Positions 22,006-23,283 of a stretch of 32,906 nucleotides of DNA are shown here, one piece after another; position 1 is the stretch's first letter, and the number at the start of each line of letters is the position of its first letter. Position numbers and translations under genes: made by a program. The stretch is from Phycisphaera mikurensis (lineage in GTDB: Bacteria > Planctomycetota > Phycisphaerae > UBA1845). The DNA lies in assembly GCA_005240095.1 (NCBI GenBank), contig SBAX01000046.1, positions 1 through 32,906 on the forward strand, written 5' to 3'. The notes beneath the pieces are model-generated. The model searched no databases. It was not told the origin of the DNA and worked only from the letters and a program-made list of their open reading frames with translations.

Positions 22006-22470
22006 ATGCAGATGCCGACGCTCGGTGAACAGCATAAGAAGCTGTCGGCCTTCGTGGGCCAGTGGGCCAGCGAGGATACGATTCATCCCGCCCCCTGGGA
22101 TCCCAAGGGCGGAACCGCCGCGACGAAAATGAACTGCCGCATGGACCTCGACGGGTTCTTCGTGCTCTGCGATTGTGCGCAGGAGCGCGGCGGCAAGGTG
22201 ACCTACCGCGGCCACGGCGTGTTCGGCTACGACGGCATGCAGCAGCGATACACCATGCACTGGTTCGACGTGATGGGCGTCGATCCGGGCCCGCCGGCGC
22301 TGGGCACGTGGGAGGGCAAGCTCACCTTCGTCCACACCCACGCGATGGGCCACGGCCGGTTCACCTACGAGTTCGACTCGCCCACTAGTTTCAAGTTCAA
22401 GATGGAGCGCTCCCAGGACGGAAAGAACTGGGCGCCGTTCATGGACAGCGTCTATCGACGGGTGTCCTGA
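22006..22470 (+). CDS. DUF1579 domain-containing protein
   Basis: LGEQHKKLSAFVGQWASEDTIHPAP...RGHGVFGYDGMQQRYTMHWFD...GTWEGKLTF. Confidence 0.72.
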   Translation: MQMPTLGEQHKKLSAFVGQWASEDTIHPAPWDPKGGTAATKMNCRMDLDGFFVLCDCAQERGGKVTYRGHGVFGYDGMQQRYTMHWFDVMGVDPGPPALGTWEGKLTFVHTHAMGHGRFTYEFDSPTSFKFKMERSQDGKNWAPFMDSVYRRVS

Positions 22471-22485
22471 TTGATGAGAGGTTCC

Positions 22486-23283
22486 ATGAGCAGATTCGAA
22501 AAGATGATGTCGCAAGGGCATCGACCGGTCAGGTGTAGTGTCGGGGCTTGTCCCCGGCGCTTGACTTCAAGCGTCGCCCACAAGGGGCGACGCTACACTT
22601 CGGCGTTAAGTGCTCGAGTTCTCGCCGTTGCATTTCTGGCAGTGGTGTTGTCCGCGTGCCAGACGCAGGCGCCGCCGGCACCGTCCGACGCTGCGGCTGC
22701 AGACAAGCCCTCTGTTCGTTCCGCCGCAAGCCAGCCCGCGAAGAATGAACCCACGAGGACCGAGGCCGCGCCGGGCAAACCCCGCCCTGATGACTCGAAG
22801 GTTGCGGCGTCACCCACGCCGGGCCCGATTGAGGCTCAGGAGCAAAAGTATCCCAACGGCAACATGAAGAGCCGCACGGAAGGCTATCGTGATGCCGACG
22901 GCAACTTCGTGCGCCACGGTCTGACCACCCTCTGGTACGAAACCGGGCAGAAGAAAGCGGAACAGGGCTTTGCGCACGACGAGCCCCACGGGCCGCGAAC
23001 CACCTGGTATATCGATGGGCGCGTATGGTCACAGGGCCAGTACGTCGATGGAATCGAGGACGGCAAGTGGGCTACCTTCTTCGCCGACGGGACCCCCCAG
23101 ACCGAGTGGCACATGAAGCGGGGCGTCTGGCACGGCCCCTATACTGAGTGGCACATGAACGGCAAGAAGCGTCTGGAAGTCGAATTCGTCGAGGGGAAAC
23201 GCCAGGGTCCCTTGCTCAGCTACGATGAACAGGGTGTCGTGGTCCTCCGCTCGGACTTCGTGGACGGCATCGAGCAGCCGTAA
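22486..23283 (+). CDS. Lipoprotein with MORN/YwqK-like repeats
   Basis: Lipobox VLAVAFLAVVLSAC; repeats YPNGNMKSRTEGY, YETGQKKAEQGF, WHMNGKKRLEVEFVEGKRQG; AGAGG upstream of ATG 22486. Confidence 0.8.
   Translation: MSRFEKMMSQGHRPVRCSVGACPRRLTSSVAHKGRRYTSALSARVLAVAFLAVVLSACQTQAPPAPSDAAAADKPSVRSAASQPAKNEPTRTEAAPGKPRPDDSKVAASPTPGPIEAQEQKYPNGNMKSRTEGYRDADGNFVRHGLTTLWYETGQKKAEQGFAHDEPHGPRTTWYIDGRVWSQGQYVDGIEDGKWATFFADGTPQTEWHMKRGVWHGPYTEWHMNGKKRLEVEFVEGKRQGPLLSYDEQGVVVLRSDFVDGIEQP
22533..22598. repeat. 66-bp composite palindromic (REP/BIME-like) element within the lipoprotein N-region
   Basis: GTGTAG...CTACAC termini; hairpins GTCGGGG-CTTGT-CCCCGGC and GCGTCGCCC-ACAAG-GGGCGACGC; central CGCTTGA-CT-TCAAGCG. 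Confidence 0.75.

Follow-up and report, generated by a model that had tools for sequence, protein, structure and literature searches.

We conclude that the window, the whole stretch of 32,906 nucleotides analyzed here, very probably carries a non-autonomous mobile palindrome, a 104-bp miniature element with a GTAG REP doublet at its core, which inserted in frame into a signal peptide and persists by virtue of a stop-free frame. What the letters show is a genuine insertion, one that looks translated, of a selfish palindrome whose kind is known but which is present here as a longer variant, bounded by terminal inverted repeats. The element (of a type we call form b) and its host gene have the following features.

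22477 to 22481, plus strand: Shine-Dalgarno-like AGAGG before the ATG at 22486, read from the sequence.
22486 to 23283, plus strand: predicted lipoprotein gene with MORN_2 repeats (PF07661, 41.9 bits), open through the element, which lies in frame.
22514 to 22617, plus strand: whole repeat element, form b, 104 bp, from the end-to-end match of the form-b covariance model and alignment with eight other copies.
22514 to 22519, plus strand: left terminal inverted repeat AAGGGC (family consensus TAGAGC), from the alignment of copies.
22533 to 22598, no strand assigned: REP doublet core, the 66-bp palindrome, from its fold (z = -6.0) and 42 related places in the assembly.
22535 to 22559, plus strand: left REP unit, with GTAG tag, 8-bp stem and CTTGT loop, from stem covariation across 44 distinct units.
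22560 to 22571, no strand assigned: 12-nt spacer, CTTGACTTCAAG (29-32 nt in ordinary doublets).
22561 to 22563, plus strand: in-frame TTG inside the element, a weak possible alternative start, read from the sequence.
22572 to 22596, minus strand: right REP unit, inverted, GTAGCGTC-GCCC-CTTGT-GGGC-GACG.
22612 to 22617, plus strand: right terminal inverted repeat GCTCGA (family consensus GCTCTA), from the alignment of copies.
22618 to 22659, plus strand: hydrophobic core and lipobox VLAVAFLAVVLSAC, from the translation.

The 66-bp palindrome had been noted in a sequence-only reading of this DNA, and we found its sequence, coordinates and hairpins to be as described there. The RNA fold of 22533-22598 reached -39.9 kcal/mol, compared to a shuffled mean of -22.7 (z = -6.0), and 0 of 200 shuffles folded as well. 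The palindrome consists of two REP units, inverted relative to each other. Its 66 bp are, however, the core and not the full unit, which conserved flanks in about ten copies extend to 22514-22617. We take the element to be 104 bp because the form-b covariance model, built from nine sequences of which the window copy is one, matches that copy end to end (22514-22617, 111.9 bits, E = 3e-29). The same reading had raised a kissing-loop RNA on the strength of the complementary loops; the CTTGT and ACAAG loops are complementary because the palindrome holds two inverted copies of one unit, and since inversion alone has this effect, we rejected the complementarity, a by-product of the inverted arms, as independent evidence for such an RNA. 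A comparison of 22300-22900 with Rfam gave no match.

Far from being single-copy, the palindrome has many relatives in its own genome. Within the same assembly (4.67 Mb, 488 contigs, ~90% complete), a 106-bp query found at least 42 places at E ≤ 0.001, a lower bound since 40 of the 81 first-look candidates were scored; copies were gathered as loci, and all copy counts are lower bounds in this sense. The pattern of a single REP unit, allowing up to three mismatches, matched 21 times in the assembly, compared to 0 for the reversed pattern. The REP family has dozens of copies in this Phycisphaerae-type genome. In the window and in most copies, the unit is composed of GTAG, an 8-bp stem with one T.G step and a 5-nt loop of the CTTGT type. 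We examined the stem in 44 distinct units from this genome and relatives, which were picked by likeness to two paired forms with off-register units dropped by hand, a choice that favors pairing, and found it paired in 95.5% of cells. Doubly changed stem cells numbered 58, compared to 22.5 expected from shuffles in which relatedness was uncontrolled, and slid versions of the covariation test gave at most 0.26, compared to 0.53.

In ordinary doublets, the two units stand 29-32 nt apart and the flanks are unrelated. Form b, with about ten copies including that in the window, has a shorter spacer, typically CTTGACTCCAAG, and its copies share outer flanks with the consensus TAGAGCATCTATCGATCAGG...CAGTTGGGCGTNAAGCGCTCTA, ending in TAGAGC...GCTCTA. 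Some form-b copies, but only some, have TA at both ends, and the ends suggest a TA target duplication for form b; the same may hold by extension for the window copy, whose termini are AA and GA, not TA. If TA is the duplicated target, the net gain at the window locus is 102 bp, or 34 codons.

Beyond this genome, the form-b model had matches in 13 of the 32 genera that make up the window's family (18 of 51 genomes), and full-length scores as high as form b were confined, in that search, to the window's genome. Exact copies of the REP arm are present in two further MAGs, Phycisphaerae bacterium OFTM243 and Sedimentisphaerales bacterium Zod_Metabat.417. The form-b core had no exact match in GTDB genome contigs, the plasmid collection gave no match, and we found no exact REP match in viral contigs.

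At the window locus, the element at 22514-22617 adds no frameshift or stop to the lipoprotein gene. With the element left out and one TA kept, the flanks encode MSRFEKMMSLVLAVAFLAVVLSAC, an ordinary lipoprotein signal, just as had been proposed for the insert-free peptide. The lipoprotein orthologues that we inspected in the family have ordinary N-termini, and none carries the insert; the nearest is 61% identical, and a near relative with an empty site is absent from the collections.

In a DUF4198 secreted protein (PF10670), a second form-b copy (G000:C165:1249-1352, L007) is likewise in frame; it follows MLRKKLL and occupies the n-/h-region junction, as in the window lipoprotein. This protein reads MLRKKLLSLWCVCGVALPASAHDFW when the copy is left out, its orthologues have n-regions of normal (short) length, and a GGGGAG motif precedes the ATG of its gene. 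Compared to orthologues, the same protein (L007:322-1473, minus strand) also has another insert of ~50 residues, GDPPVSPLMKGGGDFPF...DPPQSPLVKGGGD, apparently an in-frame repeat of another sort, with matches to a similar stretch in G013 and G001.

Both signal-peptide copies are in the sense strand and in the same frame, and we translated the form-b consensus in six frames to find that this is the only one free of stops. The consensus used has GCGTTAAG at a variable place, as do the window copy and L002; in form-b copies with other letters there, L003 for instance, a stop interrupts that frame. The shared frame of the two copies needs no explanation beyond survivorship. Survivorship accounts less fully for their shared position at the n/h junction, and two cases are few. 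That a repeat should land at the equivalent spot of a signal peptide, in its sole stop-free frame, is an event of a known kind whose recurrence is unusual. It is conceivable, but in our view unlikely, that form b, as a composite mobile element, supplies a ready-made signal-peptide n-region through its single open frame, whose product (...AHKGRRYxLALSAL) is basic and then mildly hydrophobic; if so, form b could insert ahead of the hydrophobic core and leave export unblocked, and would remodel secreted proteins.

The sequence-only reading held that the insert must be translated if the lipoprotein is made. This stands insofar as the stretch from the 66-bp core to the hydrophobic core has no in-frame ATG, GTG or TTG, but the TTG at 22561 lies inside the element itself. 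Translation from this TTG would give MTSSVAHKGRRYTSALSARVLAVAFLAVVLSAC and leave the element effectively extragenic; the upstream part (otherwise encoding MSRFEKMMSQGHRPVR) would be a structured 5' leader with a possible regulatory role for the gene. An in-frame TTG is present in both signal-peptide copies, and Di Nocera et al. caution that N-terminal REPs may reflect mis-called starts (PMC3733652). Moreover, four other form-b copies, in L003, L004, L005 and L008, end 20, 21, 21 and 41 nt upstream of the start codons of genes for an M20 peptidase, a PilZ protein, prfA (release factor) and a protein without a Pfam match, respectively. Intergenic space near starts is a large share of the sites at which insertions are tolerated, and may account for this apparent nearness. 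Against a start at 22561, no Shine-Dalgarno-like sequence precedes the TTG, which is buried in a strong hairpin; both genes have an upstream ATG with a purine-rich motif, in frame through the element; and the flanks alone encode complete signal peptides. We therefore consider translation from the TTG quite improbable, and the lipoprotein start appears best placed at ATG 22486.

We also note that the four upstream form-b copies stop just 5' of the ribosome-binding region. Single REP units occur in and near genes as well, in the places listed here.

L049:2600-2630 and L044:1001-1035: single in-frame REP units, one directly following the signal peptide in an OprB-type porin, another inside a PMT_2 membrane protein.
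L049:1001-1034: single REP unit immediately 5' of a PBP_like_2 (PstS-type) gene.

Long frames that cross REPs without domain support (e.g., L047 and L059) were not counted as genes.

In uvrA, we found two ordinary REPINs in frame (L039:545-626 and L034:1001-1085, on G000 contigs C20 and C225). Because the reading frames on C20 and C225 overlap in LITALNRLKSLGNTLLLVEH, the two pieces are probably one gene. One REPIN comes after the start of the DNA-binding domain and the other is in the linker joining the two halves, with UvrA sequence on both sides of each. These insertions bear on the concern that the window junction is a metagenome misassembly in which two unrelated pieces were joined through the repeat. 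The assembly is in 488 contigs, and the upstream and downstream neighbors that we tested are not beside the orthologues compared. Yet the two flanks make up one complete lipoprotein signal in a single frame, the second locus, in the DUF4198 gene, behaves likewise, and each uvrA REPIN has pieces of one protein on its two sides, such that we regard misassembly as extremely unlikely.

We compared the family, read as a mobile palindrome, with known systems. It resembles the GTAG REPs, REPINs and BIMEs (Bertels and Rainey 2011, PMC3116915; Di Nocera et al. 2013, PMC3733652) in its GTAG tag, which stands directly before a short stem-loop of ~25 nt with one T.G step, and in its many dispersed copies and inverted doublets with a spacer, some of them intragenic, including double uvrA insertions. 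It differs from GTAG REPINs in that the doublet of the window copy has a 12-nt spacer and is embedded in a longer element, which has terminal inverted repeats and flanks shared between copies, and in that no cognate RAYT was found for the window family in its own assembly. The Rickettsia RPEs (Ogata et al. 2000, reviewed in PMC10969869, PMC3733652), to which the element had been likened, are likewise palindromic selfish DNA found in frame in coding genes, where insertion adds a few dozen residues. In-frame coding insertion is also what we observed, by sequence, in the lipoprotein, in the DUF4198 protein and twice in uvrA. The RPEs of R. conorii, however, end in a CGTC tag (PMC3733652) and are not known to have a transposase; the outer tag of the window family is GTAG, and by the features tested the two are unrelated. 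The resemblance is useful as an analogy and a way of working, but by its tag the element is a GTAG REP doublet (REPIN). Like bacterial MITEs (review PMC10969869), form b is ~100 bp long (~104 bp), has terminal inverted repeats (TAGAGC/GCTCTA), lacks a transposase or any coding capacity of its own and has a possible TA target; it differs in that its terminal repeats are only ~6 bp, its core is a REP doublet and a parent IS was not found. We did not find a form-b-like variant, a longer REPIN with terminal inverted repeats, described in the literature searched.

REPs are thought to be moved by RAYTs, which are Y1 transposases with REP-flanked genes (PMC3116915, PMC8266576). The ~90% complete assembly has three Y1 genes, and 0 of the 3 is flanked by the window-type REP. 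We rejected all three as the cognate RAYT, since each has its own flanking repeats, unrelated to the window family: unrelated repeats of their own flank the genes on C263 and C174, and a different repeat, AAATCAGGGACAGTCACC, accompanies the third. In the relative G011, by comparison, sibling REPs, consisting of GTAGCGCC plus stem and loop, stand on either side of a Y1 gene on contig C218. The loci are as follows.

L070, L071 and L011: Y1 transposase loci of the window's own genome, with AAATCAGGGACAGTCACC beside L011.
L095:1150-2060: Y1 transposase gene of G011 with sibling GTAGCGCC REPs.

The G011 locus is a candidate REPtron for the window REP family, and given this arrangement around its Y1 gene, RAYT-type spread of the REP arms in the window genome is plausible. 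Separately, we noted that some of the GTAGCGCC REPs at the G011 gene are doublets with very short spacers, and that a 96-nt direct repeat at L071:2563 and 3359 flanks the Y1 transposase gene there.

The terminal inverted repeats TAGAGC/GCTCTA, and the TA at both ends of some copies, could instead mean that form b is a MITE of a classical TA-target DNA transposon (IS630/mariner-like) that picked up a REP doublet, with the REP having no role in movement. We consider this possible but on balance doubtful, as the DDE_3 (IS630-type) profile had no match in the assembly, and no longer element with TAGAGC/GCTCTA ends was found. One lone TAGAGC-type left end, on contig C355 (L161), runs into other sequence and reveals no parent element.

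In the course of events that we infer, a form-b element, mobilized at its REP hairpins by a single-strand transposase of the RAYT (Y1) type, would have inserted, probably at a TA that was duplicated, between the n-region and the hydrophobic core of the lipoprotein signal peptide. The 34 extra codons bring no stop or frameshift, and the gene, translated from ATG 22486, is predicted still to encode an exported lipoprotein, whose signal peptide would have a very long n-region ending KGRRYTSALSAR. The copy would persist as one that landed in the sole stop-free strand and frame, at a place where extra positively charged residues may be tolerated.

REP doublets thus enter coding sequence in frame in an uncultured planctomycete, outside the well-studied cases. 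Intragenic GTAG and CGTC doublets have been described, including double uvrA insertions in Opitutus terrae and Thioalkalivibrio (PMC3733652), and the double insertion in uvrA repeats that pattern. Of form b, the form with terminal inverted repeats, both intragenic copies that we recognized are situated where the n-region of a signal peptide meets its h-region.
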